From Nitrospirae bacterium GWC2_57_13 (GTDB lineage: Bacteria > Nitrospirota > UBA9217): 34,835 nucleotides of DNA. The position numbers were made by a program, and so were the translations under genes. This document shows positions 4,575 to 33,938 of this stretch, one piece after another. How positions within the stretch are numbered: position 1 is the first letter of the stretch; every line of letters starts with the position of its first letter. The stretch lies in the NCBI GenBank assembly GCA_001805055.1, contig MHDZ01000057.1, positions 318-35,152 on the forward strand, written 5' to 3'. Below the pieces are notes generated by a model. It worked only from the letters and a program-made list of their open reading frames with translations, made no database searches and had not been told where the DNA came from.

Positions 4575-6848
4575 ATGGATGAGCAGGAAAAACCGGATCA
4601 GCCCCCTCCGGCCTCGACGGTCCCTCCGGCCCCGGCGGAACGGGAATTGCCGCTGGACGCCAGGCTGCTTTCCGACGCTGTTATCGAATTGAACATCTCT
4701 CGCAAGAACGTGGGCATCTATCCACCCGGACACATCCAGATCACCAAGAGCATTGATCGGGCCTTTGATTCGCTTCAGAAGATGTTCGAGGTGCGGGCCG
4801 AGATGACGCTGGGCGTTGCCAAGGACACGCTCCTGGTGGGCCAGGACTATCTGGACCGAAGGAACCCTGTATACCGCGATTTTGCGCTCTCCATGAACCA
4901 GCAGGGCATCGCTGCGGTGACGTTCATTCAGGGCCTCGTCAAGGACGAACTGGTAAAATTCCACCGCCTTCTCACGACAAAACCCGAGGACATCAGAAGC
5001 GAAGGCGGCATTCTGAACGTGACGGCGGGAGCAGATATCCCGCATATCAGGATCCAGGCCATCGACTACGGCCGTTTCCACGTGACCGAGGAGAAGGAGA
5101 TCCTGAAGCCGGCGCAGCGATCAGCTGAAAAACCAAGCGTCGGCGTATGGCAGGATTTCGTTTCCCACCTGGTGACAGGCAGTCTTGCCGGCGCTGGAGA
5201 GGGCGTGTCCATCGCGGACGCGGAGCAGTTCGATCCTGCGGAACTGGCTCGCCTTCTGAACGAGCGCAAGCTCGACCCGAATACCGCGATGGAGAGCTAT
5301 GACGAGATCATAACGACTCACGTGCGTGCGTCGACAGAGAAAAAGCGGCGCACCACCGCCCAGTCGGAAAGCCTGGCGAACCTGAACAGGCTCGTTAAGG
5401 AGCTGCATCCCGAGCTGCGAAAGCAGTTCCTGTCCGTGGCCTTTCGCCATGCTGCCTCTCAACCGTCGCAGGATGGAACAGAGGACCTGCTGGGAGGTAT
5501 GCCCGACGATATGATCATCGAGATGATCAGGAACGCCAGCGCAGCGGGGAAGGAGATCTCGCCCACCCTGGCCGGCATGATGCAGAAGCTTTCGCAGGTC
5601 AGGAGCACGGAGTTGCCCGGCCGGCAGTCCCGGCAGGCGCCGGAGCAGCCGGTCGGTGCAGCGCAGGTCATATCGCCGGAGCAGATGCAGACGCTTTTCG
5701 ATCGGGAGAGCTATGAAGATTATGTGACGCCTGATTACGATGCCACGCTCAAACGGCTGACGGAACACTCAGGCCAGTCGTCCGCTGGTCCTGTGGAGGG
5801 GATCTCACCGGATGAATTCTCCCCGTCCCTTGAGGATGATCATCTCGATTTCCAGATCGGTCGGGCGCTCCTTGCCTTTATGGAGGAAGAGCTCGATGAC
5901 GAGGACTACCTTGAGTTCTCGCGAAAGCTTATCGCTGTTGTTCCGGACCTGTTGGGATCAGGGAATTTCACGCTTCTTCTCGATGTTCTGGAGTCGCTCC
6001 GGCGGCATGTGCGTGAAAAGAAGAGCCCTGTTGTCCGGGCGCAAGCGGAAGAGTCCCTTGCCATTTTTCATGATCCGGCCTTTATTGCCCAGGCCGTCAA
6101 GTCCTTCGACGCTTGGGCCCGCACCAAGGGCAAGGAAGCGGCGGGCTTCCTGCTCTCCCTGGGGCCCGAAGCGGTTCCGGGGCTTCTCGACATCTATTCC
6201 GAGGACCAGACGCCGGGAGGGCGACGGATCCTCTTCGACCTGCTGTGCAATTTCGGGAAGCCGGCCGTACAGGAAGCCCAGCGCCGGCTCCACGATCCCC
6301 GGGCCTATTACGTCCGGAACCTGCTCATGTTGATCCGGTGGGCGGGAAATGCGACCGTTGTCGCGTCGGTGAAGCCGCTTCTGCGACATGCTGATGAAAA
6401 GGTCCGGCTCGAGACCCTGGCGGTGCTTCTTCGATTCAGGGACGCCGAGGCGATAGAGCTTCTCCGTCAGGCACTCCGGTCAAAGGATCCGGACGTTTCT
6501 TCCCAGGCCGTGTTCCTTGCGGGGCAGTATCGCGTGGCGGCCGTCATCGACGACCTGCTTGCGCTGATCAAGAAGGTGATCCTTTTCGAGGCCGATTATC
6601 GGGTGAACGAAGAGATCATCAAGGCGCTCGGTGAGATCGGCGACCGGCGAGCGGTGCCGGAGCTCGAGAAACTCGCCCGTGCTTCGTGGTCGCTGCATCG
6701 CGAGAGCCTGCAGCGGATGAAGGTGGTGCTGTATGATTCACTTGGCAGGTATCCGAAGGACGTTCTTGCGGGGCTGATCAGCATCGGGGAGCAGTCGGGA
6801 GATGATCGGATCATACGTGCCTGCAGAAAATTAGCGGAGAAGAGGTAG
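4575..6848 (+). CDS. HEAT-repeat protein with shared N-terminal domain (module 1)
   Basis: 757 residues, no signal peptide or membrane segment, presumably cytoplasmic. A Pro-rich start (7-22) leads into an N-terminal domain of about residues 27-180 carrying YPPGH (49-53) and a predicted beta-rich part ending near HIRIQAIDYG. A mostly helical middle has acidic stretches, and HEAT-like helical repeats run from about 480 to the end (for example PLLRHADEKVRLETLAVLLRF). The N-terminal domain appears related to those of the next gene and of both genes at 30455 and 32511. No catalytic motif is seen, so a scaffold or adaptor role for the adjacent HD-GYP protein is inferred. The start is ATG 4575 rather than upstream in-frame codons, because the TATAAT box lies just before it. 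Confidence 0.85.
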   Translation: MDEQEKPDQPPPASTVPPAPAERELPLDARLLSDAVIELNISRKNVGIYPPGHIQITKSIDRAFDSLQKMFEVRAEMTLGVAKDTLLVGQDYLDRRNPVYRDFALSMNQQGIAAVTFIQGLVKDELVKFHRLLTTKPEDIRSEGGILNVTAGADIPHIRIQAIDYGRFHVTEEKEILKPAQRSAEKPSVGVWQDFVSHLVTGSLAGAGEGVSIADAEQFDPAELARLLNERKLDPNTAMESYDEIITTHVRASTEKKRRTTAQSESLANLNRLVKELHPELRKQFLSVAFRHAASQPSQDGTEDLLGGMPDDMIIEMIRNASAAGKEISPTLAGMMQKLSQVRSTELPGRQSRQAPEQPVGAAQVISPEQMQTLFDRESYEDYVTPDYDATLKRLTEHSGQSSAGPVEGISPDEFSPSLEDDHLDFQIGRALLAFMEEELDDEDYLEFSRKLIAVVPDLLGSGNFTLLLDVLESLRRHVREKKSPVVRAQAEESLAIFHDPAFIAQAVKSFDAWARTKGKEAAGFLLSLGPEAVPGLLDIYSEDQTPGGRRILFDLLCNFGKPAVQEAQRRLHDPRAYYVRNLLMLIRWAGNATVVASVKPLLRHADEKVRLETLAVLLRFRDAEAIELLRQALRSKDPDVSSQAVFLAGQYRVAAVIDDLLALIKKVILFEADYRVNEEIIKALGEIGDRRAVPELEKLARASWSLHRESLQRMKVVLYDSLGRYPKDVLAGLISIGEQSGDDRIIRACRKLAEKR

Positions 6849-6850
6849 CT

Positions 6851-8008
6851 ATGCCCGATTCTACGACGGACAGGGATCTGCAGGAAGGCATCTCTCGCGT
6901 CATCGCGCAGCTCACGGCAGCGGTGACGAACACGGGGCTCTATTCCGCCGACCATCCGCAGGTTGCTCAGTACGCCGACAAGGCTTATGGTGTGCTGGAC
7001 GAGCTGCTCGCTCTGCGGCCAGAGATAACGGTCCTGCTGATCGGCGACGACCTGGTGGCGGACCAGAAGCCCCTGCCACCAGGGGCCTATGTGACCAATT
7101 TCGTCCGTATTATGAAGCGAAAAGCCATTGAACGCCTCACCTTTGTCGCAGGCCTTCCGAGGGCCGAGTTCGGCGCGCTGATCCACGATCTTGCCTCTCC
7201 CGATGCAGCGATGGTACGATCAACAGCTTTTATCAAGCTGGGAAAGGTCGAGCTCAGGGTCAAGACCGGCACAGATGCAGCTCAGCAGTCCGGGCCGGTG
7301 AGTGAGATCTCTCCTGAGGATTACGAAGCGCTGATCTCCCTTTCGGCCACCGAGTTGAACGAGTTGAAAGATCTTTATCTGAACATCAAAAAACACCGGA
7401 AGATCGATGTCAGGGGAGTTGATGAGATCGTCAAGTCCTTTGTCGCGAGCGTGCGGCAGGAGAGCAATCCTCTGAGCCTGCTGGCGTCCCTGAAATCGGC
7501 CCACGAATATACCTTCACCCATGTCACGAACGTGGGTATTCTCACCATGAGTCAGGCCGAGGCCCTTGGGTTCAAGGGCGAGCAGCTCCATCAGATCGGC
7601 ATTGCTTCGTTGCTTCATGACGTGGGAAAGCTCTTTGTTCCCGCTGAGATCCTGAACAAGCCGGGAAAGCTTACGCCTGAAGAGCGGAGTATCATCGAGA
7701 CCCATACGGTCAAGGGCGCGCGGTATCTCATGGGGCTCGACGGCATCCCGAAGGTCGCGGTGCTCGCGGCCATGGAACACCATATGAAATACGACGGCAC
7801 GGGCTACCCGACCCTCAAGGGTGGGTGGCGTCCGAACATCGTGAGCCAGATCATCGCCATATCCGATGTGTTCGACGCCATGCGCAGCAGGCGTTCCTAC
7901 CAGGAGCCCTTCACGATCGAGAAGATTGCCGAGGTGCTGAAGAACGGGAGCGGGAAGTCCTTCAATCCCGCATTGGTGGACCATTTTTTAAAACTGATCC
8001 GGCGGTAA
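6851..8008 (+). CDS. HD-GYP domain phosphodiesterase (module 1)
   Basis: 385 residues, probably a soluble c-di-GMP phosphodiesterase. The N-terminal domain (about 10-140) carries YSADHP at 31-36 and resembles that of the upstream HEAT protein. The HD-GYP domain (about 205-380) has H256-D257 in LLHDVGK, a HTVKGARYL segment, EHH and DGTGYP at 315-320, so the metal ligands and GYP signature are present. The ATG is 2 bases after the previous stop and has GAGGT upstream, indicating translational coupling. It forms one operon with the HEAT protein and the GGDEF gene, which gives a turnover pair for c-di-GMP in one transcript. Activity is inferred from motifs only. Confidence 0.92.
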   Translation: MPDSTTDRDLQEGISRVIAQLTAAVTNTGLYSADHPQVAQYADKAYGVLDELLALRPEITVLLIGDDLVADQKPLPPGAYVTNFVRIMKRKAIERLTFVAGLPRAEFGALIHDLASPDAAMVRSTAFIKLGKVELRVKTGTDAAQQSGPVSEISPEDYEALISLSATELNELKDLYLNIKKHRKIDVRGVDEIVKSFVASVRQESNPLSLLASLKSAHEYTFTHVTNVGILTMSQAEALGFKGEQLHQIGIASLLHDVGKLFVPAEILNKPGKLTPEERSIIETHTVKGARYLMGLDGIPKVAVLAAMEHHMKYDGTGYPTLKGGWRPNIVSQIIAISDVFDAMRSRRSYQEPFTIEKIAEVLKNGSGKSFNPALVDHFLKLIRR

Positions 8009-8050: not shown

Positions 8051-9457
8051 GTGAAGATCCTTGTTATTGACGATGACTATGTCACGCGCCTCCTGCTTCA
8101 GGAGATCCTTGCTTCGAAAGGATATGATGTTGTCGTGGCTGAAGACGGCGAGGGGGGGCTGAGCAAGGCGCGAACCGAGCGGCCTTCTCTCGTGATCACC
8201 GACGTGCTCATGCCGGGCCTGGACGGCTTTCAGTTCCTCCGGGAGGCGCAGAAGGACTCCTATCTCGCCGGCGTTCCCGTGATCTTTTATACGGGCAGTT
8301 ATCTGGACCGGAAGGACGAAGAGCTTGCGCGCGAACTGGGCGTGGCACGCTATCTTATCAAGCCGGTCATGCCGGAAATTCTGCTTGCGACGGTGCAGGA
8401 AGTGCTGGAGGAGAAGGGCCCGTCCGACAAGCGGACAGCCGAGCCGCGGCAACTCGAGGAGCCTGTGTTCCTGAAGCTCTACAACGAGCGGCTGGTCAGC
8501 AAGTTGAAGAGCAAGGCGATAGAGAGTGAGCGCGCACGGCTATCGCTGGGGCACATCATGGAAAGCATCGGCGACGGCGTGGTGGTCATAGAAAGGGACC
8601 ATACGATTCTGCATGCCAACACAGCTGCAGGGGCCATGCTCGGCATCACAAGGGATGATATGATCGGCCGCAAGTGCCATGATGTCATACACCGGCAGTC
8701 GACGCCCTGCGACAACACGGACCATGCCTGCCCCCACAACGCGGTCTTTGATCGCGGAGAGATCGTCAAAGTGCTCCATACTCATACTGATGCCGGGGGA
8801 GGCGAGCGATACGTGGAGATCACGGCCTCTCCTGTCAGGGACGGCGCGGGTGAGATCTTTGCCATGGTCGAGACCCACCGTGACAGCATGGAAAAGCAGC
8901 GCGACGATGAGCTTGTGCGGCTGGTAAAGAATCTGAACGAGGCGCAGACGAACCTGAAACACATGGCCGTGACCGATGAGCTCACGGACCTGAAGAACCG
9001 ACGGTACATCATGGAGCGGCTGGAGGAGGAGTTCCAGCGGGCAAAGAGATCGGCACGGTCGCTGGGTCTTATCATGCTCGATATCGACCATTTTAAGGAA
9101 GTGAATGACGTATATGGCCATATTGTCGGGGACGCCGTGCTCAGGACGATCTCCGGCAGGATCAGAGACAGCCTGCGCAAGCATGACCTGGTGGGCCGGG
9201 TGGGAGGAGAGGAATTCCTCGTTGTCTGTCCTGAGTCGGGTCTCGAAGAGACCGTGCAGGTGGCGGAACGGATCAGGCGGGTCGTACATGCAAAGGCCAT
9301 CGGGGAAGGGACCGTCGAGGTCCTCGTTGCGCTGAGCGCCGGCGTCACGGTCCAGGGAAAAGGGGACAAGAGTGCTGATATGCTCTTTTCCCGGGCTGAC
9401 ACAGCACTTTACCGGGCCAAGGATCAGGGAAGGAACCGGGTTGTGACCATGACGTAA
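8051..9457 (+). CDS. Response regulator with PAS and GGDEF domains (diguanylate cyclase)
   Basis: 468 residues. The receiver domain (1-125) has D7-D9, phospho-acceptor D51 in VITDVLMPG and Lys in LIKP. A short helical linker leads to a PAS domain (about 165-280) containing two cysteines in a TPC...ACPH segment. The GGDEF domain (about 300-468) has DELTDLKNRR, the active-site GGEEF at 385-389 and an inhibitory I-site RKHD at 376-379 exactly five residues before it. It is therefore expected to make c-di-GMP, with product inhibition, under control of phosphorylation and a PAS ligand. The start is GTG at 8051 with AAGGGGG upstream. It is last in the operon with the HEAT and HD-GYP genes. Confidence 0.95.
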   Translation: MKILVIDDDYVTRLLLQEILASKGYDVVVAEDGEGGLSKARTERPSLVITDVLMPGLDGFQFLREAQKDSYLAGVPVIFYTGSYLDRKDEELARELGVARYLIKPVMPEILLATVQEVLEEKGPSDKRTAEPRQLEEPVFLKLYNERLVSKLKSKAIESERARLSLGHIMESIGDGVVVIERDHTILHANTAAGAMLGITRDDMIGRKCHDVIHRQSTPCDNTDHACPHNAVFDRGEIVKVLHTHTDAGGGERYVEITASPVRDGAGEIFAMVETHRDSMEKQRDDELVRLVKNLNEAQTNLKHMAVTDELTDLKNRRYIMERLEEEFQRAKRSARSLGLIMLDIDHFKEVNDVYGHIVGDAVLRTISGRIRDSLRKHDLVGRVGGEEFLVVCPESGLEETVQVAERIRRVVHAKAIGEGTVEVLVALSAGVTVQGKGDKSADMLFSRADTALYRAKDQGRNRVVTMT

Positions 9458-9749: not shown

Positions 9750-10352
<603 letters not shown>

Positions 10353-10363
10353 TCGGTAAGTGA

Positions 10364-10392
10364 TGAGTTCGGAGTGCGGAGTGCGGAATAAC
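10364..10392. repeat. Heptad tract between pyrR and pyrB
   Basis: GAGTGCG units, two of them perfect, repeat with period 7 and are flanked by related units. The rest of the 115-base gap has no ORF. Confidence 0.7.
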
Positions 10393-10467
10393 TACTTCCT
10401 GCGCGCACCCGCAGGAATTCAGTGTCTTTAAACCATGTTCATCCGTGGTTCCCTCAGAGGTTGATCC

Positions 10468-11400
10468 ATGTCACTCAGTTCAAAAGACCTGCTCGGCATC
10501 AAGGGAATGAGCCCTGAAGAGATCCGGCTCGTGCTCGACACGGCCGCCTCGTTCAAGGACGTGTCGGAGCGGGACATCAAAAAGGTCCCTGCGCTGCGCG
10601 GCAAGACGGTGATAAACCTTTTTTACGAGCCGAGCACCAGAACGAGAACATCCTTTGAACTGGCGGGCAAGCGTCTTTCAGCCGACGTGCTGAACATCTC
10701 GACTACTACGAGCAGCGTGGTGAAAGGCGAGACCCTGCTGGACACGGCGCGCAACATCGAAGCGATGAAGTGCGATGTTCTCATCCTGCGCCATCCCTGC
10801 TCAGGGGCGCCTGCGTTTCTTGCTTCGAGGCTCAAGAGCTCGGTGATCAATGCCGGCGACGGGTTCCATGAGCACCCCACCCAGGCCCTGCTCGACCTCT
10901 TCACGATCAGGGAAAAGCTCGGAACGATCGAGGGTCGTACCGTGGCAATTGTGGGCGACATTGCCCACAGTCGGGTGGCACGCTCGAATATCTACGGCCT
11001 TACGGCCCTGGGCGCCCGGGTCAGGGTCTGCGGCCCTGCCACGATGATACCGTACGGGATCGAGCAAAGCGGTGTTGAAGTATTCTACGATGCTGACCGG
11101 GCCGTGGACGGTGTCGACGTCATCATGACGCTACGGCTGCAGCTCGAGCGCCAGGCAGCGGGGCTCTTTCCCGGAGTCCGTGAATACGCGAGACTCTACG
11201 GTCTGAACCGGGACCGTCTCAGCCGCGCAGGGAAGAACGCCATGGTCATGCATCCGGGCCCCATGAACCGGGGCGTGGAGATATCGTCTGACGTGGCTGA
11301 CAGTTCATCGGTCATCCTGGACCAGGTCACGAACGGCGTGGCGGTCCGCATGGCGATCATGTTCCTGTTGTCAGGGGGAGCAAAGGCGGAAGCGTCATGA
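10468..11400 (+). CDS. pyrB: Aspartate carbamoyltransferase catalytic chain
   Basis: 310 residues. Condenses carbamoyl phosphate with aspartate, the committed step of pyrimidine synthesis. The carbamoyl-phosphate loop STRTRTSFE is near residue 55 and the [10 protein letters not shown] signature near 132. The Asp-domain has [13 protein letters not shown] and [12 protein letters not shown]. No pyrI regulatory chain is present, and a PyrR-type operon usually lacks one. The ATG has AGAGG eight bases upstream. Confidence 0.98.
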
Positions 11401-11437
11401 ATTCGGAATTCGGATTGCGGAGTAAGAGAATCGGAGG
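11399..11437. repeat. Heptad tract between pyrB and pyrC
   Basis: AATTCGG twice, then ATTGCGG, AGTAAGA and GAATCGG, in strict period 7, starting at the pyrB stop codon. A small GCGAA/TTCGC hairpin follows in the remainder of the gap. Confidence 0.75.
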
Positions 11438-11524
11438 AAGCTTTTTAATTGAGTCATTTGCGAAAATTCGCGTCGCTGAGATGCGCCTGCTTTTAGTCAT
11501 TCGCGGCTAATCCAGAAGGTTCTT

Positions 11525-12790
11525 ATGAACATACTCATCAAAAACGGCCATGTGGTGGATCCGGCGAACAAGGTTGACGAGAAGCTGGATATCCTTATCT
11601 CCGGCAACAGGATCGCCGGTATCGGCAAGCCCGGCTCGATCGGGTCCGAGGGCGCTCAGGTCATGGACGCTTCAGGGAAGGTGGTCGTGCCCGGCCTGAT
11701 CGATATGCATGTCCATCTTCGTGAACCAGGGTATGAGTATAAGGAGAATATCGCCACAGGCACGGCTGCGGCAAAAGCCGGCGGTTTCACGTCCCTCTGC
11801 TGCATGCCGAATACGAACCCGGTGAATGACACGGGATCGGTAACGGAGTTCATCCTGTCCCAGGCAGCGAAGTCAGGCAGCGCCCGCGTCTATCCTGTCG
11901 GCGCGGTCACGAAGGGTTCGAAGGGCGAGGAACTGGCCGAAATGGGCGAACTGCACGGGTCCGGGTGCGTTGCAGTGTCCGATGACGGCAGGCCTGTGAT
12001 GAATGGGGCGATAATGCGCCGGGCCATGGAGTATTCAAAGATATTCGGAATCCCGGTCCTGTCCCACTGCGAGGACGCCAATCTTTCGGCCAAGGGCGTC
12101 ATGAACGAGGGCGCGCTCTCCACAGAGCTGGGTCTCCGGGGCATTCCATCGGCGGCTGAGGATTCGATGACGGCCCGGGACATATTTCTTGCCGAACTCA
12201 CGGGATGCAGGCTCCATCTCTGCCACGTCAGCACAAAAGGTGCGGTGGCGCTGATACGGGAGGCCAAGGCGCGGGGTCTTGCCGTCACCGCCGAGACCTG
12301 TCCGCATTACTTCACTCTGACCGATGAGGCTGTGCGCGGCTACAACACCATGGCAAAGATGAATCCGCCCCTCAGGACCGCTGAGGACGTGCAGGCGATC
12401 AAAGAGGGGCTCAGGGACGGGACCATCGACGTGATTGCCACTGACCACGCGCCGCACGGCATGGACGAGAAGACCGTGGAGTTCGAATATGCTCCCTTCG
12501 GCATCGTGGGCCTCGAGACGGCTCTGGGCCTTTCGCTCCGACTCGTGCAGGAGGGAGTATTGTCCCTGACCGATCTGGTCCGGAAAATGAGCCTGAATCC
12601 GGCGGTGATCCTGAAGATCAACAGAGGGACGCTCTCGTCGGGCGCTGAAGCGGATATTACGATCATCGATCCGGACCTGGAATGGACCGTTGATGCGGCT
12701 GTTTTCAAATCAAGATCACGGAACACGCCTTTTGACGGATGGAAATTGAAAGGCCGGGCAGTTCAGACGATCATGGGCGGGAGAGTATAG
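11525..12790 (+). CDS. pyrC: Dihydroorotase
   Basis: 421 residues, the class I (Bacillus-like) zinc dihydroorotase that cyclises carbamoyl aspartate. The metal site [10 protein letters not shown] is near residue 60. [25 protein letters not shown] and ATDHAPH supply further ligands and the catalytic Asp. The ATG has AGAAGG five bases upstream. Its stop TAG shares its G with the GTG start of the next gene. Frame and length are normal. Confidence 0.97.
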
Positions 12791-12822
12791 TGCGGAGTGC
12801 GGAGTGCGGATTTCGGAGTAAA
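12790..12822. repeat. Heptad tract over the start of the metallophosphatase
   Basis: TGCGGAG occurs twice in succession and is followed by TGCGGAT and TTCGGAG, period 7. The tract lies inside the coding region, where it specifies the first residues of the next protein. Confidence 0.75.
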
Positions 12823-14870: not shown

Positions 14871-14964
14871 GAAATCCCTGTCGGCCTGTAAATGCCTCGG
14901 GCAGGAGCCCATCAGCCTGAAAACATCAGTCAGGACGCGGAACCGCCGGCCATACATCAAGTGT

Positions 14965-14986
14965 ACAATTTGCAATTTTCAATTGG
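14965..14986. repeat. AT-rich heptad tract before the radical SAM gene
   Basis: Three successive CAATTnn-type 7-mers (CAATTTG and CAATTTT among them). It has the same period as the GC-rich tracts but a different unit. Confidence 0.6.
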
Positions 14987-15002
14987 GGCCGGAGGCCGTG
15001 CT

Positions 15003-15911: not shown

Positions 15912-15915
15912 CGCC

Positions 15916-16011
15916 GATTGTAAATTGAAAATGGTAAAGTGCAAATTGGAAAATGAAACAGTACTGATTCTCATTTTGAAATTTTAAATTTCCAATTTCC
16001 AATGCATTAAG
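15916..16011. repeat. AT-rich heptad tracts with inverted arms before carB
   Basis: GTAAATT, GAAAATG, GTAAAGT, GCAAATT and GGAAAAT units run with period 7 in the first half. TTCCAAT occurs twice, in the opposite sense, in the second half. The arms AAATTGGAAA and TTTCCAATTT can pair, forming a hairpin in the carB leader. Confidence 0.65.
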
Positions 16012-16030
16012 GTTTGAGAGGAAGGATTAG

Positions 16031-20593: not shown

Positions 20594-20625
20594 ATCATAT
20601 TGCTTTAAGAGCAGAGGGGTTTACC

Positions 20626-20685: not shown

Positions 20686-20730
20686 GATGCCCGAAGTCCG
20701 AGATCAGAAATCCGCAATGGGAAGCCCCGA
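20651..20730. repeat. Heptad tract over the pyrD start
   Basis: TGCGGAA and TGCGGAG units are followed by TCCGAGA, TCAGAAA and TCCGCAA units, all in step at 7 bases. The tract covers the pyrD initiation region and the first codons. Confidence 0.7.
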
Positions 20731-24696: not shown

Positions 24697-24754
24697 AAAG
24701 TGATGCAACTACAACTAACTGTGATTGATAACTGTAAGGAGCGAGGTGAAATCC

Positions 24755-26086
24755 GTGTTCGTTCGTTGGAGCTTTGGAGGCATTCTGATAGCCGCACTGA
24801 TCGGCAGCATCGCATCGTACAGTATGCCTGCGCAGGCAGGAACAGACTCCTGTGTGGCGGGCAAATGCCACTCCACGATGGGAAAGGCAAAGGCAGTCCA
24901 TCCTCCGGTGAAGGACGGAATGTGCACGGCCTGTCATGCGGTGAGCGAGACAAAGGGCAAATCCTCGAAGCATCCGGGAGGCCTTACGATCACGCTTGTT
25001 CAGCAGGGAGCCGATCTGTGCACCATGTGCCACGAAGCGAAGAATACCAAAAAAGTGGTTCACGCGCCCATCATGGGCGGAGATTGCACGGGTTGCCACA
25101 ATCCGCACCAGTCCCCGAACAAGGGAATGCTGCGCGAACCTGCGCCGAAGCTCTGTTTTCAGTGCCACGCAGATACGGCGTTCAAGAGCGCTGTTCTACA
25201 CCCGCCCGTTGCTTCCGGCGATTGTTCAACCTGCCACGATAATCACCAGAGCGATTTTTCCCAGCGGCTTGTGATGGACCGCAGCCGACTCTGTTTCATG
25301 TGCCATTCGGACAAGGAAGAAGCACTGAAGAAGAAAAAGGTCGTTCATGCACCAGTCAAGCAGTCCTGCGTCAAATGCCACGATCCTCACGGGTCCCCCA
25401 ATGCGACCCTCCTGACGTCCACGGTGCCGACGCTCTGCGCTGCCTGCCATCCGAACGAGGTGCAGTCCGGCCAGAAGTCCTTCTCGAAGCACGCACCGAC
25501 AAATGAAGGGAAGCGCTGCCTGACCTGTCATGACGCGCATGCGTCGGATCACCGCAAACTGCTGCCGCAGCCGCAGATGGAACTTTGTCTGGGCTGCCAC
25601 GATCGGGAGATCAAAGCCGCGTCAAGCACCATCAGGGACATGAAGGGGTTCCTGCAGAAGAACAAGGTCGGCCACGGACCGTTGAAGGACAAGAACTGCT
25701 CGGCATGCCATGATCCGCATGGTTCCGACTACTGGCGACTTATGGAGAAATACTATACCTCGGAGTTTTACGCTTCCTATGCTGATGGCAGATACGCATT
25801 GTGTTTCAGCTGTCACGCAAGCGCAGCGTTCACGGAGATGACGACGAAGGCTGAGACGAAATTCCGGGACGGAAGCAGAAACCTGCATTTTGTGCACGTC
25901 AATAAAAAGCAGAAGGGCAGGACATGCAAGACCTGTCACGAAGTCCATGCAGACACCGGTCAGCCCCGGCATATCAAAGATATGGTGCGGTTCAGCGGAT
26001 GGGAAATGCCGATGAATTTCATCCCGACCCGAAGCGGCGGATCCTGTGCGCCGGGATGCCACGGCGAGAAAAAATATTCAAGATAG
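24755..26086 (+). CDS. Exported multihaem c-type cytochrome, 13 CXXCH plus two variant sites
   Basis: 443 residues from GTG 24755, chosen because GAGGTGA lies five bases upstream; GTG 24746 and TTG 24725 are alternatives. A signal peptide (cleavage after about A28) precedes repeated paired-CXXCH units. Thirteen canonical CXXCH motifs are present (CTACH, CTMCH, CTGCH and so on). The first Cys pair, C33-VAGK-CH, is a CX4CH site and the last, C431-APG-CH at 431-436, is CX3CH. If all carry haem the protein binds about 15 haems in 415 residues, consistent with a periplasmic or outer-surface electron conduit. Many extra His (VHAP, HPPV) could be distal ligands. It is the first gene behind the sigma-54 promoter. 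Confidence 0.95.
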   Translation: MFVRWSFGGILIAALIGSIASYSMPAQAGTDSCVAGKCHSTMGKAKAVHPPVKDGMCTACHAVSETKGKSSKHPGGLTITLVQQGADLCTMCHEAKNTKKVVHAPIMGGDCTGCHNPHQSPNKGMLREPAPKLCFQCHADTAFKSAVLHPPVASGDCSTCHDNHQSDFSQRLVMDRSRLCFMCHSDKEEALKKKKVVHAPVKQSCVKCHDPHGSPNATLLTSTVPTLCAACHPNEVQSGQKSFSKHAPTNEGKRCLTCHDAHASDHRKLLPQPQMELCLGCHDREIKAASSTIRDMKGFLQKNKVGHGPLKDKNCSACHDPHGSDYWRLMEKYYTSEFYASYADGRYALCFSCHASAAFTEMTTKAETKFRDGSRNLHFVHVNKKQKGRTCKTCHEVHADTGQPRHIKDMVRFSGWEMPMNFIPTRSGGSCAPGCHGEKKYSR

Positions 26087-26193: not shown

Positions 26194-27975
26194 TTGAGGC
26201 ATCGAATGTTCACCTTGTTCAGAACCGTGATCGCTGTCTGCGTGATGGCGGTCGGAACGGCCGTTGCCGCAGATGCGCCTGCTGTCACGATACATTATCC
26301 CGTGGACAGGTCCGTTGTCGGGAACAAGGTGAATTTCGTCCTGGATTTCGCAACGGACTGGAGCGCGGTTCCTTTTTTTCAGGTCCTGGCGGGGAAGCGT
26401 GAGTATCCTGTCGTGGAGACCTCGTCGGGAAGGCACGCGATGCAGGGAATTGCGCTCGAACCGGGAGTGAACACGCTCACGCTCAGGCTGTTCGCATACA
26501 AGGACGCAGCACGAAAGAAGGGTATGGAGCTTGTCTCCACGCGGGAGATAACCATCTATAGCGATGTCCCTGTCTTTTCGGGTAACGCGATCCCCGAGGG
26601 ATTCACCGTACGTCCCTTCCATACCCGGGGCCAGGAGAAGGACTGTTCGGGATGCCATCGCATGGATGTGGAGCCCGCAGACCTGAAGCCGGTACAGCCG
26701 GCGGATATGATCTGTTATACCTGCCACAAGAGCATTCCCACGGGCAAGCATATCCATGGTCCTGCTGCGGTGTGGGGATGCATCTCCTGCCACGATCCCG
26801 ACGAAGGCCCTGTCAAGTATCGTTTTGCGGATCGGTCCCCCTGGAAGATCACGCGTACCACGCAGCCCGTGGAGCCGCTGGTGTTCACGATCCCCTCGGA
26901 CGGGGTGTTCAACTCCTCGTCATCGTCGCTGGCCATAAGGCGGAAGCAGTTGAAGGATCTGCTGGCAGAGCCGCTTTCAGCGCTTCGAAGGCACCGAGCG
27001 TACAGCATGTTCCTGGAAGTACATACTGACGGCGCACCCATCAGGAACCCCCGCTATAAGGACCATCGTCAACTCGCCAAGTCGCGGGCCCGGGTCCTTT
27101 CCACGCTTCTTGTTCAGTTCGGTGTGTCCAAGGCGAAGATCTCGGTGGTTGGTGTGGGAAGATCGAGCCCCCGGGCAGGTGAACAGGGCAGTGGCGATAG
27201 TAATCGCATTGTTATCGTTCTGCATCCAGCCGGTACGGAGGTGAAGAGCAGCGAGAAGCTTCCGTCGATGAAGGGCTGGGAGCGCCAGGTCGTGCAGATC
27301 ACCTACGCGAACGGACCCGCCGTCTCCGGCCTGACAGTACGGGAAGCACTTCCGTCACACGTGCAGTACGTCAGGGACACAGGTACAGTACAAGGCAGGT
27401 TCAGGAATCCGCGCATAAATAAAAGCGCGCTGATCTGGAACCTTGGCGGCCGCAAGGGGAACTTTGAAGAGACGATCGCGTATGTGGTGAGGAGAACGGG
27501 CACCTCCTCCAAGGCTCCACCGGAGACGGCCATCTCCTACACGCAGCAGGACGGCGTGATCGTCAACTATGCTCCTTTTGAGAAGGGGAAAAAGCGGCGG
27601 ACGGTGGCGGAGACCTGCCTCTCGTGTCACCAAGGGATGCTTGACGGCGCTTTCAGGCATGGTCCGACCGAGGCGGGTTATTGCAATCTTTGCCATGACC
27701 CGCACGCAAGTCCGAACCCCGCATGGCTCAGGAAACCCGCCTGGGACCTGTGCGTCACCTGCCATGCCGAGATGGCCGAGGGAAAGCACGTGGTGGCGGG
27801 GTTCGTTTCCGGAAAAACCCATCCAACGAAAGGCCGAAGTGATCCCGCTCGCCCCGGCAGGGAGTTGTCCTGCGCCAGCTGTCACAATGCTCACAGCGGT
27901 AAGAGCCGCTCGCTTTTTGTGTACGGTGTCAAGGAGCGGCACGATCTGTGCGTCCAGTGTCACAAGAATTTTTGA
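26194..27975 (+). CDS. Multihaem cytochrome fused to OmpA-like and DUF11-like domains
   Basis: 593 residues from TTG 26194 behind GGGAGGA; ATG 26206 is an alternative start. Order: signal peptide (to about 26); beta-sandwich-like region (30-145); three CXXCH (C151, C174, C196); an OmpA/MotB peptidoglycan-binding domain (about 235-348) with LEVHTDGAP, SRARVLSTLLVQFGV and NRIVIVLHP; a DUF11-like repeat domain (about 360-440) with TYANGPAVSGLTVREALP; five CXXCH (C475, C497, C520, C560, C586). Eight haems are expected. The OmpA part would tether it to the cell wall in the periplasm or at the outer membrane. It follows the first cytochrome by 107 bases and probably shares its sigma-54 transcript. 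The fusion looks unusual. Confidence 0.93.
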   Translation: MRHRMFTLFRTVIAVCVMAVGTAVAADAPAVTIHYPVDRSVVGNKVNFVLDFATDWSAVPFFQVLAGKREYPVVETSSGRHAMQGIALEPGVNTLTLRLFAYKDAARKKGMELVSTREITIYSDVPVFSGNAIPEGFTVRPFHTRGQEKDCSGCHRMDVEPADLKPVQPADMICYTCHKSIPTGKHIHGPAAVWGCISCHDPDEGPVKYRFADRSPWKITRTTQPVEPLVFTIPSDGVFNSSSSSLAIRRKQLKDLLAEPLSALRRHRAYSMFLEVHTDGAPIRNPRYKDHRQLAKSRARVLSTLLVQFGVSKAKISVVGVGRSSPRAGEQGSGDSNRIVIVLHPAGTEVKSSEKLPSMKGWERQVVQITYANGPAVSGLTVREALPSHVQYVRDTGTVQGRFRNPRINKSALIWNLGGRKGNFEETIAYVVRRTGTSSKAPPETAISYTQQDGVIVNYAPFEKGKKRRTVAETCLSCHQGMLDGAFRHGPTEAGYCNLCHDPHASPNPAWLRKPAWDLCVTCHAEMAEGKHVVAGFVSGKTHPTKGRSDPARPGRELSCASCHNAHSGKSRSLFVYGVKERHDLCVQCHKNF

Positions 27976-28048: not shown

Positions 28049-28077
28049 TTGCAACAGTCATTGCGCTGGTATATACT
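28049..28077 (+). promoter_or_regulatory. Sigma-70 promoter of the NHL lipoprotein pair
   Basis: TTGCAA (28049-28054) is followed after 17 bases by TATACT (28072-28077). The start would be near 28084, about 19 bases before the ATG at 28103. It shows that the NHL genes can be expressed apart from the sigma-54 unit. Confidence 0.7.
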
Positions 28078-28102
28078 GTTCAGTATAGGGAGCTTGCCGC
28101 TT

Positions 28103-29110
28103 ATGAAAGTACTTGCCATTCTGCCTTTCCTTGCGGCCCTGTTCAGCGGTTGCGCGGTCATTACGGGAGAGGACTCCACGCTCTCCCGGGAGCAAGCCGC
28201 AGGACCGCGGCTGGCTTTCGAAGAGACCCTGAAAAGCAGCGAGAGCCTTCAAGGACAAGGCCTGCGGGAAAATGTGCGTCCGGCAGTTTTCGCGCAGTCG
28301 CTCCAGCGGCCCGTGGCCGTTTATGCCGATGCATTCCGGGTCTATGTGACCGATGAGTATCATCTTTCATCATCCCAGTCAGCGCGGGTCTTCATCTTTG
28401 ACCGGGGCGACCGCAGCCTGACCATTCTGGGTGATGGCGTACCGGCTGCCGATGCCGTCAAACTGCTCGCGCCGTCAGGCATCGTCGTGGATGCCGCAGG
28501 TGTTGTGTTCGTAGCCGATGCTCAGCAGGGGAGGGTGTTCGGATATGACCGGAACGGCGCACTGCTGATGGAGTTCGGCAAGCGGGGGGAGCTCGGCTCT
28601 CCAGCGGGCCTCGCCATCGACCGGGACCGGAACCTGCTGTACGTTGCTGATTCTCATGCCCGGCTGGTGAAGGTGTTCACGACAATGGGAACGCCGGTGC
28701 TCGAGATCGGCGCAGCAGGGGAGCATCGTTTATCTGGAGCTGCGGCCCTTTCCCTTGACGGGGCCGGAAATGTATATGTGCTCGACGACCGTTCCCGGAA
28801 GGTGCGGGTCTACGACCGCGAGGGCGCGCATCTGAGGGAATTCAGCATAGCAGGGGAACAACCGGGAACGTCCCTGCAGCCGAGGGGCATTGCCGTTGAT
28901 TCTGTCGGGCGCGTCTACGTGTCTGACGCGGTCGCGAGTTCGGTGCGGATCTTTGACGCCAGCGGAGCCTTCATCCGCACCTGGGGAAGATCAGGCGTGC
29001 TGGCAGGAGAGTTCCTGAGGCCCCTCGGGATATTTATCGACAGGAATGATACCATCTATGTTGTCGACCAGTCCAATGGACGTGTTCAGGTATTCCGTTC
29101 GTTCCCCTGA
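28103..29110 (+). CDS. NHL-repeat beta-propeller lipoprotein 1
   Basis: About 335 residues from ATG 28103, with AGGGAG upstream. The frame is open further up, but that region holds the promoter. The lipoprotein signal peptide ends in LFSGC. NHL repeats then fill the rest of the protein (for example PSGIVVDAAGVVFVADAQQGRVFGYD and three to four more of the pattern GIA-D-G-YV-D), consistent with a six-bladed propeller. Such proteins are common beside multihaem cytochromes in metal-reducing bacteria, probably as a binding scaffold in the outer membrane. No catalytic residues are recognised. The next gene is a paralogue 25 bases downstream. Confidence 0.9.
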   Translation: MKVLAILPFLAALFSGCAVITGEDSTLSREQAAGPRLAFEETLKSSESLQGQGLRENVRPAVFAQSLQRPVAVYADAFRVYVTDEYHLSSSQSARVFIFDRGDRSLTILGDGVPAADAVKLLAPSGIVVDAAGVVFVADAQQGRVFGYDRNGALLMEFGKRGELGSPAGLAIDRDRNLLYVADSHARLVKVFTTMGTPVLEIGAAGEHRLSGAAALSLDGAGNVYVLDDRSRKVRVYDREGAHLREFSIAGEQPGTSLQPRGIAVDSVGRVYVSDAVASSVRIFDASGAFIRTWGRSGVLAGEFLRPLGIFIDRNDTIYVVDQSNGRVQVFRSFP

Positions 29111-29135
29111 TGCCCGCAGCGGCTTGCACAGCGTG

Positions 29136-30131
29136 ATGCGCCTCGCATCGTACGCGCTGATGCTCCTTGCCGCATGCCTGCTTTCCGCCTGCGGACCCGC
29201 GAAGCGACCTGCCGAGCCGGACAACCTTTTCTGGCCCCTTCCTCCTGATCCACCGAAGATAAAATATATCCAGTCCATCTATTCGGAAGACGATATCGGC
29301 CGGGTCTACTCCTTCATGGAAAAGCTGTTCGGCAAGGACTATCACGACAGCCTTGTACGACCCTACGGCGTGTTCGCCCGGACGGGGGCGATGGCCGTGG
29401 CCGATGTGACCCTCCGAAGGGTGCTGCTCTTTGACCTGACGTCGAAGCGGCTCACGATTGTCGGTGACGACGGAACGCTCAGGATTCCTTCTGCCGTTGT
29501 TATCGACAGCAGCGGCAGGATCTATGTGGCCGACGGACCTGGAGGCAAGGTCGCGTTGTATGATGCTTCCGGTCGATATCTGACAGCGTTCTTAATGAAA
29601 GACAGCCGGCCCATTGCGCTGGCCCTGAACGAGCAGGCTGGAAAGCTTTATGTTATCGACGGGGATGGGCACCGTATTCTCGTCTTCGGGCTCGATGGCC
29701 GCCGGATAGCCGTTATCGGCAAAGCCGGGAGAGGGGCAGGCGAGTTCAATTTTCCGATCGATATCGCGATTGACCGGTCCGGCCTCCTGTATGTCCTCGA
29801 CGCCCGGAATTTCCGGGTGCAGATCCTTGAGGAGGACGGTAGTTATCTCAGGTCCTTCGGCTCTGCAGGCGACGTCCCCGGTTCTTTTGCGAACCCGAAG
29901 GGGATCGCTCTGGACTCCAAGGGCCATATCTATGTGACCGACGCCGCCTACAGCAATTTTCAGATCTTCGACTCCACAGGAAATATCCTTCTCTTTGTCG
30001 GCTCCCTTGGGCCCCGGCCTGGCGAGTTGCACTTGCCAGCAGGCATATCGATCGATGAACAGGACCGCATCTATGTTGCCGACCAGCTGAACGGTCGCGT
30101 CCAGATTTTTCAGTATCTCGACAGCCAATAG
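29136..30131 (+). CDS. NHL-repeat beta-propeller lipoprotein 2
   Basis: About 331 residues from ATG 29136 (GTG 29133 is equally possible), 25 bases after the previous stop. The signal peptide has lipobox LLSAC. A short N-terminal region with PPDPPKIKYIQSIYSE is followed by NHL repeats (PSAVVIDSSGRIYVADG, PIDIAIDRSGLLYVLDA, PKGIALDSKGHIYVTDA, PAGISIDEQDRIYVADQ). Its end, NGRVQIF, matches the end of the preceding protein, so the two arose by duplication. Probably an outer-membrane-anchored propeller; its partner is unknown, with the upstream cytochromes the natural candidates. The ribosome binding site is weak (AGCGG). Confidence 0.9.
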   Translation: MRLASYALMLLAACLLSACGPAKRPAEPDNLFWPLPPDPPKIKYIQSIYSEDDIGRVYSFMEKLFGKDYHDSLVRPYGVFARTGAMAVADVTLRRVLLFDLTSKRLTIVGDDGTLRIPSAVVIDSSGRIYVADGPGGKVALYDASGRYLTAFLMKDSRPIALALNEQAGKLYVIDGDGHRILVFGLDGRRIAVIGKAGRGAGEFNFPIDIAIDRSGLLYVLDARNFRVQILEEDGSYLRSFGSAGDVPGSFANPKGIALDSKGHIYVTDAAYSNFQIFDSTGNILLFVGSLGPRPGELHLPAGISIDEQDRIYVADQLNGRVQIFQYLDSQ

Positions 30132-30445: not shown

Positions 30446-30454
30446 AAGAGTACC

Positions 30455-32521
30455 ATGCTGGAAGCGAAACAACCTGCTGATGCCGCGCCCTCCGAAGTAC
30501 AAGAAATTGCAAGGGATATTCTTGCTGCTCTGCGCGCAGTGAAGCTCTATCCGGAAAACAACCCCGTTCATTCCCAGACCATAGCGAGAACTTTCAAGGT
30601 TCTGAATCAGTACCTGGACCGGCAGCCTGAATACCATCTCGGCCTGCAGAAGGCGGGTTTTATTTCCCGTGCCGGCCGGATCACGCTCGGCCCGCACCTC
30701 TCCAAGGGCGTGGCCGCGGACCTCTTTGCGAAAGGCGTCAGGGAGATTGCCTTTACGCGGGGTCTTACAGAGTCTGAATTGCGGGATTTTCTGACGGTCT
30801 CCGCTATGCAGTCCGACGAGTTGAAGCAGCAGGGAGGCATTGCGCCGATCCTCTGGGGAAAAGGGGTAGTCCATGTCCGGATCAGGGAGGCAGCGCTCGA
30901 TGAGCGGCCTCCTCTAGACGGTCCTGCAGGGACAACGCCTGCTGATGAGATGACTGCAGGCCTTGCAGGAGAGCTGGGTGCCTTGGAAGGCTCGTTGGTC
31001 AGCGTTTTCGGTCTGACAATCGGGCTTGCAGAACTCGCCGCAGACCCTGCATCGTTCGGGAAACAGGCTGTAGGGATCAGTGCTGGTGAAGGCCTGTCCC
31101 GTCAGGAGCAGGATGACAGGCTGCTCGAAGTATACCGGCAGGTGGGACAGCAGGTCCTGAAGAAGTCCTATGAATTGCGCGGCCCGGTCTTTTCCGCCCT
31201 TGCCAGTTCGATCCTCTCCATGGACGCGGACCAGAGCTCCCGGCTTGTTGCAGAAAGGCTCTACCCCGAGGCTGACGCTCTCCTGTTGAACGGGAATGCG
31301 CAGAATCTTGCCGAGCGTCTTCCTCATGATCTGCATGAACTCATTTCTTCCCGGTTTTCACGCTCCTGGACAGCGCCGCAGGTCTCGTCGCTCCTTGAAA
31401 AAATCTGTTCCGCTGAGGACGGCGTCAAGTCTACAGGTCCAGCCGGCGTCCCGCTGCCTGCGGGCCTGGCTGAGGCGGTAAGGGAATTGGCGGAGTATAC
31501 GCCCGGAGAGCTCGAAACGCTCAGGACGATCTGCGAATCAGGGGAAGAACGGGACTCACTTGTGGCAGCGTCCGGGGTCCTGATGCACCTGCTGCAGTCT
31601 GTTCAGGATGGAACACGAAAGGAATCGCAGCAGGATTCCCTCAGCTCTTTTTCGAATATGGTCAGCCAGCTTGAGGATGCCCACGATCGTCTCGTTGCAG
31701 TGAATGACTATGCTGCGGCCGGGCAGATCCTTCGGGCCTTCAGATCCGCATCTGTTCCCCTGTACCGCCAGCGGCTCGGCGAGGCTATCATGAGGTCCGC
31801 TGAACGGCGACGCATCGAGACGCTCATCGCCCGTCTGCGCGGACTTGCGCCGGGCGCCGCAGATGCGGGCGTATATCTCGCCTACCTTTCCATCCTCGAC
31901 CGGCAGGCCACGCCGGTACTGCTCGAAATGCTGTCTGCAGAAGAGGACAGGACCATGCGTCGGCTGCTGGTCCAGATACTGAAGGACCTGGGCAGGAACC
32001 AGATCGCATTCCTGGGACAAAAACTGTCAGATGAGCGATGGTACTTCGTGCGCAATATTGTGAGCATCCTCGGGGAGAGCCATCGCGAGGAAGCTGTAAC
32101 CTATCTTGCCGGCGTCGCACGGCACAAAAACTTTCAGATCCGCCAGGAAGTAGTCCGCGCGCTGACCACCATCGGCGGCGGAAAAGCCGCAGAACTGCTG
32201 GTCCAGTTCCTTGCCGACAGGGACATCGACATCCGGTTCATGGCGATCCGTGGACTCGGTACTCTGGCGTCGCCGAGCGCCAGGGGGGAGCAGGCACTGA
32301 TCGATTTTTTGAAGCGTAGGGCTTGGTCGCGCAAGGGGGATTTCGAACTGCGTTTGGAAGCGATAGGATCACTCGGCCGTATGGGCGGAACGGCTGCGCA
32401 GACTGTGCTTGGGAAGCTCGCGCGGCGGACGTGGTGGCGCTCGGGCAGGCAAAATCGGGAGATCAGTGCCGAGGCCGCACGGGCGTTGGCTGAACTTGAG
32501 CGGAGGACCCATGGCGCTTGA
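30455..32521 (+). CDS. HEAT-repeat protein with shared N-terminal domain (module 2)
   Basis: 688 residues, soluble. The N-terminal domain (about 13-150) has YPENNP at 32-37 and shares the layout of the 4575 gene, including GLTESELRDFL and HVRIREA at the same relative places. A long helical middle of unrecognised fold follows. HEAT-like repeats from about residue 450 include VLLEMLSAEEDRTMRRLLVQILKDLG, KNFQIRQEVVRALTTIG and DIDIRFMAIRGLGTL. No catalytic motif is present. It overlaps the following HD-GYP gene by 11 bases, so both products are made together. A role as partner or scaffold of that protein is inferred, as for module 1. Confidence 0.85.
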   Translation: MLEAKQPADAAPSEVQEIARDILAALRAVKLYPENNPVHSQTIARTFKVLNQYLDRQPEYHLGLQKAGFISRAGRITLGPHLSKGVAADLFAKGVREIAFTRGLTESELRDFLTVSAMQSDELKQQGGIAPILWGKGVVHVRIREAALDERPPLDGPAGTTPADEMTAGLAGELGALEGSLVSVFGLTIGLAELAADPASFGKQAVGISAGEGLSRQEQDDRLLEVYRQVGQQVLKKSYELRGPVFSALASSILSMDADQSSRLVAERLYPEADALLLNGNAQNLAERLPHDLHELISSRFSRSWTAPQVSSLLEKICSAEDGVKSTGPAGVPLPAGLAEAVRELAEYTPGELETLRTICESGEERDSLVAASGVLMHLLQSVQDGTRKESQQDSLSSFSNMVSQLEDAHDRLVAVNDYAAAGQILRAFRSASVPLYRQRLGEAIMRSAERRRIETLIARLRGLAPGAADAGVYLAYLSILDRQATPVLLEMLSAEEDRTMRRLLVQILKDLGRNQIAFLGQKLSDERWYFVRNIVSILGESHREEAVTYLAGVARHKNFQIRQEVVRALTTIGGGKAAELLVQFLADRDIDIRFMAIRGLGTLASPSARGEQALIDFLKRRAWSRKGDFELRLEAIGSLGRMGGTAAQTVLGKLARRTWWRSGRQNREISAEAARALAELERRTHGA

Positions 32522-33938
32522 AGATCAGGTCACCCAGCGCGCCGAGACCAGGCTTTCCTTTTTTCTGCAGCAGCAGGTAGTACAGAAGGCGAAACTCGCG
32601 TTCCTGCGCTTCATGGCGCTGCTCAAAAATGCGTCTCTTTACCCGCCTGCCCACCCGTTCCTTCTGGGATCGGCCGAGCAACTTCTGGTCAGCCTGGAAG
32701 AGCTTTTTTCCGACCGGAACGAGGCCTCTTTCCATTTTGTTTCCGGAGAGCTGTTTTTCGGCGCCCTCTCGGTGCAAATAGAGGAAGTATTCTCCCAGGG
32801 CATTGAAGAGTTCGTACAACGCGACATCGGCGGTTTCACGTATCGGAAGGGACTGGAGCGGCAGGAAATCATTGCTTTGGCCTATCTTCTGCAGAAGGCG
32901 CCGGGGGCCGCTTCCGGGGACCTGCGGGAGCAGATCCAGGGGGCGGGGATCACCCACGTTACGGTCCTGCCGGTGCCTCCTCGGAGAGATCGGAAGAACA
33001 GAGCAGGCGATGGAACGGAACGTTCCGCCCGCGAGCTCTATCAGGACGGGATTGAGACCGTGAAGGACCTGATCCAGTCAGCCCAGCACGGCAAGATGCC
33101 GAACACGCGGCAAGTCCAGATGCTGGTACAGGGCATGGCGGACAGCATTATGGGCAACAGAGACGCCCTGCTCGGCCTGACAACCTTGAAACTCTATGAT
33201 GAATATACCTTCGCCCATTCCGTCAACGTATCCATCCTTTCACTGGCCATGGGGACATATCTCTCCTTTGACCGCCCTCAGGTCGCTTCGCTCGGAGTGG
33301 CCGGGCTCCTGCACGATATAGGAAAGGTAAACGTTCCCGTCGAGATCATCAACAAACCGGACGGCCTTGCCGATGCTGAATGGGACATCGTGAAGCGCCA
33401 CCCCGTGGAGGGGGCGAGGATCCTCTCGGGTATGCCGGGCATAACGCGGCTCGCCATGGTGGCGGCCTTCGATCATCACCGGCAGTATGATCTGAAGGGA
33501 TATCCGCACCAGTCACCGGGGGCGCAGCCTCTCCCGCATCCCTATTCCCGCATCGTTGCCATCGCAGACGCCTATGACGCCATCACCTCGGCGCGCGTCT
33601 ATTTTCGCATGATAACTCCTCCTTACGAAGCGGTGCGGCTGCTGCTTACCAAGCGGGGCACTATTTTCGATCCCGTCCTGGTCAAGGCATTCGTCAACAT
33701 GGTCGGAATATTCCCGATCGGCACGCTGCTTCGGCTGACTACGGGCGAGATCGCGCTGGTGGTTCGCCAGACCAGGGACCTGCTGCGCCCCAGCGTTCTC
33801 CTGCTCACGACCTTTGACGGAACAGAGACCGAGGAGGTCAGTTTGCTTGAGACACGGTCCGGTGCCTACGGCAGGAGTGCAGTAGCCACCATCGCACCTC
33901 AGGATGCGAATATCGATCTGGTGCGATATTTCCAGTAG
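32511..33938 (+). CDS. HD-GYP domain phosphodiesterase (module 2)
   Basis: 475 residues from ATG 32511, with GGAGG close upstream and the start inside the end of the HEAT gene. The N-terminal domain (about 25-160) has YPPAHP at 44-49 and ends near ITHVTVLP. The HD-GYP domain (about 245-415) has H268-D269 in LLHDIGK, RHPVEGARIL, DHHRQYD and KGYP, with G330-Y331-P332. The metal-site residues appear intact, so c-di-GMP hydrolysis is expected. A C-terminal extension of about 60 residues (from GTLLRLTTGEIALVV) is beta-rich and is common in HD-GYP proteins. Unlike module 1, no GGDEF gene follows. Confidence 0.92.
   Translation: MALEDQVTQRAETRLSFFLQQQVVQKAKLAFLRFMALLKNASLYPPAHPFLLGSAEQLLVSLEELFSDRNEASFHFVSGELFFGALSVQIEEVFSQGIEEFVQRDIGGFTYRKGLERQEIIALAYLLQKAPGAASGDLREQIQGAGITHVTVLPVPPRRDRKNRAGDGTERSARELYQDGIETVKDLIQSAQHGKMPNTRQVQMLVQGMADSIMGNRDALLGLTTLKLYDEYTFAHSVNVSILSLAMGTYLSFDRPQVASLGVAGLLHDIGKVNVPVEIINKPDGLADAEWDIVKRHPVEGARILSGMPGITRLAMVAAFDHHRQYDLKGYPHQSPGAQPLPHPYSRIVAIADAYDAITSARVYFRMITPPYEAVRLLLTKRGTIFDPVLVKAFVNMVGIFPIGTLLRLTTGEIALVVRQTRDLLRPSVLLLTTFDGTETEEVSLLETRSGAYGRSAVATIAPQDANIDLVRYFQ

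Follow-up and report, generated by a model that had tools for sequence, protein, structure and literature searches.

The stretch analysed here (the window) comprises 34,835 nucleotides (nt) of contig MHDZ01000057.1 (positions 318 to 35,152, forward strand; assembly GCA_001805055.1) from Nitrospirae bacterium GWC2_57_13, and it carries two modules, at 4575-8008 and 30455-33938, in which a gene for a long HEAT-repeat protein is followed by a gene for an HD-GYP protein. The two modules had been pointed out in an earlier note made from the DNA alone, and the open reading frames together with Pfam matches to HEAT_2 and HD_5 above cut-off bear this out. Because the two genes are adjacent, a domain is common to both products and they stay paired through much of the phylum Nitrospirota, the HEAT/HD-GYP pair is probably one signalling unit, so far undescribed. 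The features of the two modules are as follows.

4575..6848, plus strand: HEAT-repeat protein of module 1 (P0001, 757 amino acids (aa)); translation, Pfam HEAT_2 at 1.3e-16
4671..5051, plus strand: shared N-terminal domain of P0001; profile matches
5850..6845, plus strand: HEAT solenoid of P0001, borders approximate; Pfam and C-terminal profile
6851..8008, plus strand: HD-GYP protein of module 1 (P0002, 385 aa); translation, Pfam HD_5 at 2e-23, AlphaFold model
6893..7252, plus strand: shared N-terminal domain of P0002; BLASTP and profile matches
7499..8002, plus strand: HD-GYP catalytic domain of P0002; H224, H256, D257, K260, H285, H310, H311, G318-Y319-P320 and D339 present
8051..9457, plus strand: REC-PAS-GGDEF protein after module 1, an optional neighbour; Pfam
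30455..32521, plus strand: HEAT-repeat protein of module 2 (P0003, 688 aa); translation, Pfam HEAT_2 at 5.3e-18, AlphaFold model
30500..30880, plus strand: shared N-terminal domain of P0003; profile matches
31541..32518, plus strand: HEAT solenoid of P0003, about residues 363-688; model compared with the PDB
32511..33938, plus strand: HD-GYP protein of module 2 (P0004, 475 aa); translation, Pfam HD_5
32592..32963, plus strand: shared N-terminal domain of P0004; profile matches
33192..33710, plus strand: HD-GYP catalytic domain of P0004 (HHRQYDLKGYP); Pfam and alignment
33711..33935, plus strand: C-terminal extension of P0004 past the HD-GYP domain, border approximate; 143 residues after GYP versus 65 in module 1

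The HEAT_2 matches score 61 bits in P0001 and 65.5 bits in P0003 against a Pfam cut-off of 27.7, and the HD_5 matches score 83.4 bits in P0002 and 78.3 bits in P0004 against a curated cut-off of 27.2. The coupling of the genes is as tight as had been claimed: 2 nt separate them in module 1, and in module 2 the HD-GYP gene begins 11 nt before the HEAT gene ends, with GGAGGA upstream of the HD-GYP ATG. A longer frame is possible for the HEAT gene of module 1 from GTG 4308; because it overruns the start of a divergent response-regulator gene (about 3747-4448, minus strand), we infer ATG 4575 to be the preferred start. Only module 2 has a C-terminal extension after the HD-GYP domain. The source genome contains 10 HD_5 matches, and the shared domain is found on just the two in the window.

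The N-terminal domain of about 130 residues, which had been judged by eye to be common to all four proteins, was compared by sequence and by profile. BLASTP matches HEAT to HEAT at 2e-17 and HD-GYP to HD-GYP at 1e-44, and it also matches HEAT-1 to HD-GYP-1 across the N-terminal domain at 3e-9. A profile of the four domains, run on the source genome, matches exactly the four window proteins. When a HEAT-type and an HD-type domain profile of 56 rows each were compared, with the window's own rows omitted, hhalign aligned them over 131 columns with a probability of 99.53 and an E-value of 3.7e-23, and five controls using the remaining parts of the proteins reached probabilities of only 0.11-0.28. 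The four regions are therefore not unrelated, and chance or composition as the source of the likeness is excluded by the independent rows and the controls. With the window rows included, the comparison within each of three lineages of pairs (described below) gave E-values of 3.4e-23 (A), 2.3e-13 (B1) and 2.4e-10 (B2). The segment borders are not independent, because all segments were excised with one common profile. It was trained on the first 82 proteins and detects each of the 116 domains in the 58 pairs described below, the weakest being that of the L075 HD-GYP protein at an E-value of 1e-4.

In the AlphaFold models of P0002 and P0003, the predicted local distance difference test (pLDDT) scores are 84.0 and 85.7, respectively, with most ten-residue blocks of the domain at 90 or above. 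The elements of the domain follow the same order in both models (helix, helix, two strands, helix, strand, helix and a late strand), and the P0003 domain has one additional short strand and two additional short helices. The tyrosine of the Y-(P/S)-x-x-(H/N)-like motif that had been described for the domain is present in 56/58 HEAT proteins (the other two have an F and a gap). Among the HD-GYP proteins, each of the 30 in lineages A and B1 has it, but the description needs correcting for the third HD-GYP lineage (HD_B2), where 26/28 proteins have H at this position. The domain does not appear to be catalogued: in a Pfam and NCBIfam scan of 39 members (38 natural and one consensus), no family matched more than two members, the best E-values being 0.0097 for Pfam and 0.0056 for NCBIfam (cut-offs are given for the first member alone, which falls below them), and membership of a known family was rejected for want of a convincing match. 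A search of the PDB with profile A4 returned 23 sequences at an E-value of 10 or less, three of them below 0.01, namely the designed protein octarellin V.1 (1.7e-6), ribosomal protein L9B (0.0038) and a linked cytochrome c555 trimer (3.4e-4); the four-row domain profile gave a similar result. We judged these three to be composition matches, and a solved structure for the domain was rejected on this judgement. In structure comparisons of the P0002 and P0003 models, HD-GYP or HEAT matches fill the lists. Similar Y-P-x-x-H-P starts may also occur in proteins of delta-type proteobacteria.

To describe the pairing, 40 loci and 20 more were fetched and joined with the two window modules to give 62 places; since the 60 fetched loci were picked by a match to the domain profile, they give the share of matches that lie in pairs and not the frequency of pairs. 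A complete HEAT-then-HD-GYP pair was found in 58/62 places, with both genes on the same strand in all 58. The four left out are L030, where HEAT is spread over two frames, L036, where the HEAT frame reaches the contig end, L054, which has a kinase, and L076, which has HEAT and no HD-GYP. Over the 58 pairs, the HEAT stop lies a median of 58 nt (range -14 to 334 nt) before the first codon matched by the HD-GYP domain, and 54/58 have a start codon no more than 48 nt from this stop, a count for which the nearest start was used and which thus favours small gaps. The domain of the HD-GYP partner was missed by the four-row profile at the threshold applied in seven loci, with weak earlier matches (E-values of 1.7e-4 to 1.0e-3) in L045, L053, L059 and L060 and none in L047, L051 and L061; a retrained profile recovers it in all seven, having been trained on the same set. 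Fourteen more loci (L094-L107) were chosen as exceptions and stand outside the 58. Both genes are present in L101, L104, L105 (with a short HD-GYP) and L106, the HD-GYP gene adjoins a HEAT gene truncated by the contig end in L100, L102, L103 and L107, and L094-L099 are unpaired cases. L104 (2699-9425) is a tandem of two HEAT/HD-GYP pairs from a single genome; in one of these pairs, the HEAT gene is split into two frames.

The distribution of the domain was examined with a 39-row profile at an E-value of 1e-4 or better, and it was found in 266/395 Nitrospirota genomes (224/324 of the more complete ones). The number of copies per carrier genome, which is a less selected measure than the pair counts at the loci, is two in 140 genomes, four in 75, three in 15, six in 12, five in 11, one in 11 and eight in two; it is even in 229/266 carriers and lies between two and eight in 255/266. 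In the window's own family, 46/53 domain matches in 14 genomes sit, by our reading, in same-strand pairs, and at least four of the other seven reach a contig end (G008 C156, G009 C30, G013 C218 and G013 C303). These family and phylum surveys rejected a pairing restricted to the source genome, and the adjacent pairing, for which the earlier note had proposed a survey of genomes, is spread over the phylum. Beyond Nitrospirota, a tblastn search of plasmids and phages with the consensus gave no match, and a contig scan with two narrow peptide patterns matched 37 stretches, the single confirmed one being from a Nitrospirae record.

With a quick method, one tree was built from the catalytic region of the HD-GYP proteins and a separate one from the HEAT proteins. 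Both trees contain the lineages A (17 pairs), B1 (13) and B2 (28), and the two partners fall in the same lineage in 58/58 pairs, with module 1 in lineage A and module 2 in B1. Support for the three lineages in the Shimodaira-Hasegawa-like approximate likelihood ratio test (SH-aLRT) is 99, 95 and 87 in the HD-GYP tree and 99, 94 and 100 in the HEAT tree; the weaker values are those of B2 in the former (87) and B1 in the latter (94), and finer branches are partly discordant. Because the trees agree for all pairs, duplication and inheritance probably acted on the pair as a whole. A tree of the shared domain splits the HEAT and HD types with two label changes, compared with a mean of 39 after shuffling (none of 500 shuffles was as low); this tree has few columns and does not show a strict single HEAT/HD split. 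The simplest history would be one duplication of the domain between the two genes, followed by duplication of whole pairs, with no swap of partners between lineages in this sample.

No other gene accompanies the pair constantly. When the neighbours from 41 sources were clustered, HEAT and HD-GYP formed a cluster that occurs in 40 (all except L054). The widest cluster beyond the pair, REC/GGDEF proteins, occurs in 6/41 sources and three families; other outside clusters reach at most six sources, mostly within one family and a few within two or three. Five clusters of equal or greater width are made up nearly entirely of frames that overlap the two genes of the pair. A constant neighbour gene was rejected, since no outside cluster exceeds six sources or three families. 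A GGDEF gene follows module 1 and not module 2, as the earlier note had said, and a count made with a single-sequence model on flanks of unequal length found one in the stretch of 6/58 pairs (window module 1, L022, L024, L028, L051 and L053). GGDEF as a fixed third member was therefore rejected, and we regard it as an occasional neighbour.

Between the two modules, at window 9810-21637, lie pyrimidine genes, with Pfam matches for a phosphoribosyltransferase (pyrR-like), carA, carB and dihydroorotate dehydrogenase, and with pyrB identified by eye at 10468-11400. A single frame at 26194-27972 combines an OmpA domain match with, further on, paired CXXCH multihaem cytochrome motifs, and it adjoins a multihaem cytochrome at 24725-26086; it may possibly encode an outer-membrane electron-transfer protein. 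Directly upstream of module 2, two frames that overlap each other (28049-30131) contain NHL beta-propeller repeats and resemble lipoproteins by eye.

The key residues of the HD-GYP proteins were compared with those of solved relatives. H224, H256, D257, H285, H310, D339 and G-Y-P are invariant in all 58 aligned proteins, and H311 and K260 (the HDxGK lysine) are kept in 57/58. Because the metal ligands and GYP are kept, the HD-GYP proteins of the modules are likely to hydrolyse cyclic di-GMP (c-di-GMP), but that of module 1 is without one acid that PmGH requires. At the position of E185 in PmGH, 56/58 proteins have Y, one V and one W, and neither E nor D, which marks the E/D-T-G trinuclear subgroup, occurs among the 58. 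According to PMC4159591, the residue at this position decides the HD-GYP subgroup, and this rule assigns the family to the Y/F subgroup, for which two metals are probable.

Taken together, these results suggest a model in which each module is a two-gene c-di-GMP unit, an HD-GYP hydrolase and a dedicated HEAT partner joined through their N-terminal domains, with the HEAT protein placing or gating the hydrolase; we give this model about an even chance of being correct. The HD-GYP protein would act as a phosphodiesterase on c-di-GMP and, as a member of the Y/F subgroup, probably hold two metals, and the HEAT protein, composed of the N-terminal domain, a helical middle part and the HEAT solenoid, would be its dedicated partner. 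Both partners would be produced together, with the paralogous N-terminal domains most likely holding them in one complex, and the solenoid may bind a target or signal protein by which the hydrolase is placed or gated. Setting out from the shared domain, the close pairing, the tree agreement and the conserved ligands, which we observe, we infer the complex formation, the gating, the direction of control and the activity. The prevalence of even domain counts, the split of the domain into HEAT and HD types and the lack of an equally constant neighbour also favour the model.

Several observations weigh against this model. At the threshold used, 129/395 genomes are without the domain, so some members of the phylum either manage without the unit or carry a version that has diverged beyond detection. 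At L076, a HEAT gene has no HD-GYP gene before the contig end, and in L094 and L095 (one genus), the HD-GYP form occurs with no HEAT gene found within the 8.5-kilobase stretch. The domain also heads a PAS-HisKA-HATPase kinase at L054 (3296-5233) and L096 (3462-5324), each adjoined by a response-regulator gene. At L097 (2829-6671), a 1280-aa protein combines GGDEF, an AAA/STAND-like ATPase domain, the shared domain (residues 672-802) and HEAT repeats; L099 (3792-6263) has GGDEF, the ATPase domain and the shared domain with HEAT absent from the frame, and L098 (3620-6373), with part of the ATPase domain, the shared domain and HEAT, is cut by the contig end before GGDEF and probably encodes a protein of the same kind. 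The genomes of L097, L098 and L099 have a single copy of the domain each, yet eight HD_5 matches each. The cyclase-ATPase-HEAT architecture of L097 is unusual, and this fusion speaks for the model in so far as it ties the domain-HEAT combination to c-di-GMP metabolism, here to synthesis in one chain. Because it occurs in histidine kinases and GGDEF-ATPase fusions, the domain serves signalling more widely and is not exclusive to the pair. The proposal of the earlier note that the pairs assemble through this domain, with HEAT perhaps as an adaptor, is supported in part, as regards the shared domain and the tight pairing.

Input domains often recur across signalling proteins, and the recurrence on kinases and GGDEF-ATPase proteins, in genomes where a sole copy was found, fits a reading in which the N-terminal domain serves homodimerisation or ligand sensing in each protein separately, so that the partners share a pathway and a signal without binding each other. 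The shared domain can indeed support homodimers too. We consider this reading rather unlikely, since separate use alone leaves the strict gene order, the overlap and the tree agreement in 58/58 pairs unexplained. A targeting role would also agree with the presence of the domain on proteins of catalytic, kinase and scaffold type; it would bring both partners to one cell site or structure, where HEAT scaffolds other partners and HD-GYP lowers c-di-GMP locally; no constant neighbour gene indicates such a structure, a weak objection because targets need not adjoin, and we hold this role to be distinctly improbable. The hydrolase itself may be questioned, which concerns activity and is compatible with the other readings. 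According to PMC4159591, changing D183 of PmGH to alanine abolished activity. This position has D in 42/58 HD-GYP proteins and H in P0002 (position 218), so the module 1 HD-GYP protein may be weak or inactive and differ in activity from that of module 2, a further point against the model. When the proteins are divided into long and short forms by the length after GYP, a division that differs from the lineages at L078 and L084, D is present in 37/39 long and only 5/19 short ones, the form of module 1, and module 2 reads DLKGYP rather than DGxGYP. That the HD-GYP proteins, module 1 above all, are c-di-GMP receptors or inactive like Bd1817, with the output being a c-di-GMP-dependent change in the HEAT partner, has little probability in our view: 58/58 or 57/58 proteins retain the metal ligands and GYP, whereas Bd1817 is without the GYP tyrosine (PMC4159591), and the long forms almost all keep D.

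Carried beyond the window, the model of a joined pair leads to a broader reading, which we hold tentatively and with somewhat more doubt than the model itself. The domain may be an uncatalogued assembly domain of Nitrospirota c-di-GMP networks that couples an HD-GYP hydrolase to an obligate HEAT regulator, forming several insulated units per cell without partner exchange, and that elsewhere wires in GGDEF-ATPase proteins and histidine kinases. The separation of signals in cells with many c-di-GMP enzymes is an open question, and dedicated protein partners are one proposed answer. Here, a partner pair is kept over much of a phylum in multiple copies, with the halves always of the same lineage in the 58 sampled pairs. 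With such paralogous, lineage-matched halves, specificity is directly testable by comparing cognate and non-cognate N-terminal domains of one genome.

As the earlier note had supposed, no named system of this form was found: the domain has no family match, and a literature search on HEAT, HD-GYP, GGDEF and c-di-GMP adaptors, judged by titles and the starts of abstracts, gave no description of such a pair. PMC3071791, which also mentions HD-GYP, has ARM/HEAT in a table for an unrelated protein. For the HEAT half, the solenoid of P0003 (residues 363-688) resembles alphaRep designs (7z0g_C; VIA Z 18.7, root-mean-square deviation (RMSD) 4.4, 191 aligned) and the CpcE/CpcF lyase (5n3u_A; Z 13.8, RMSD 4.6, 175 aligned). 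Because HEAT is a common fold, this likeness gives no function, and unlike both, the window HEAT proteins carry an extra N-terminal domain and have a paired HD-GYP gene. For the HD-GYP half, Bd1817 of Bdellovibrio (3tm8, 3tmb-d) is covered over most of its length by Foldseek (RMSD 12.8, TMt 0.60, 343 columns), and 3tmb_B is the top VIA match (Z 23.4, RMSD 3.3, 221 aligned), comprising the HD-GYP part and linker helices. For its N-terminal region a likeness is doubtful: the VIA alignment reaching into the domain has an RMSD of 11.5, and profile A4 misses Bd1817 in the PDB at an E-value of 10 or less; PMC4159591 describes Bd1817 as being without phosphodiesterase activity. PmGH (4mcw), PA4781 (4r8z), the DvhD HD-GYP domain (9rbz) and V-cGAP3 (5z7c), all among the best fold matches, have the HD-GYP fold, the metal ligands and GYP in common with the window proteins, and PmGH is the best solved sequence match for both P0002 and P0004, differing from the window family in that Y replaces its E185. 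In contrast to these solved HD-GYP proteins, those of the window begin with an uncatalogued domain where the others have known input domains, and they have a dedicated HEAT partner.

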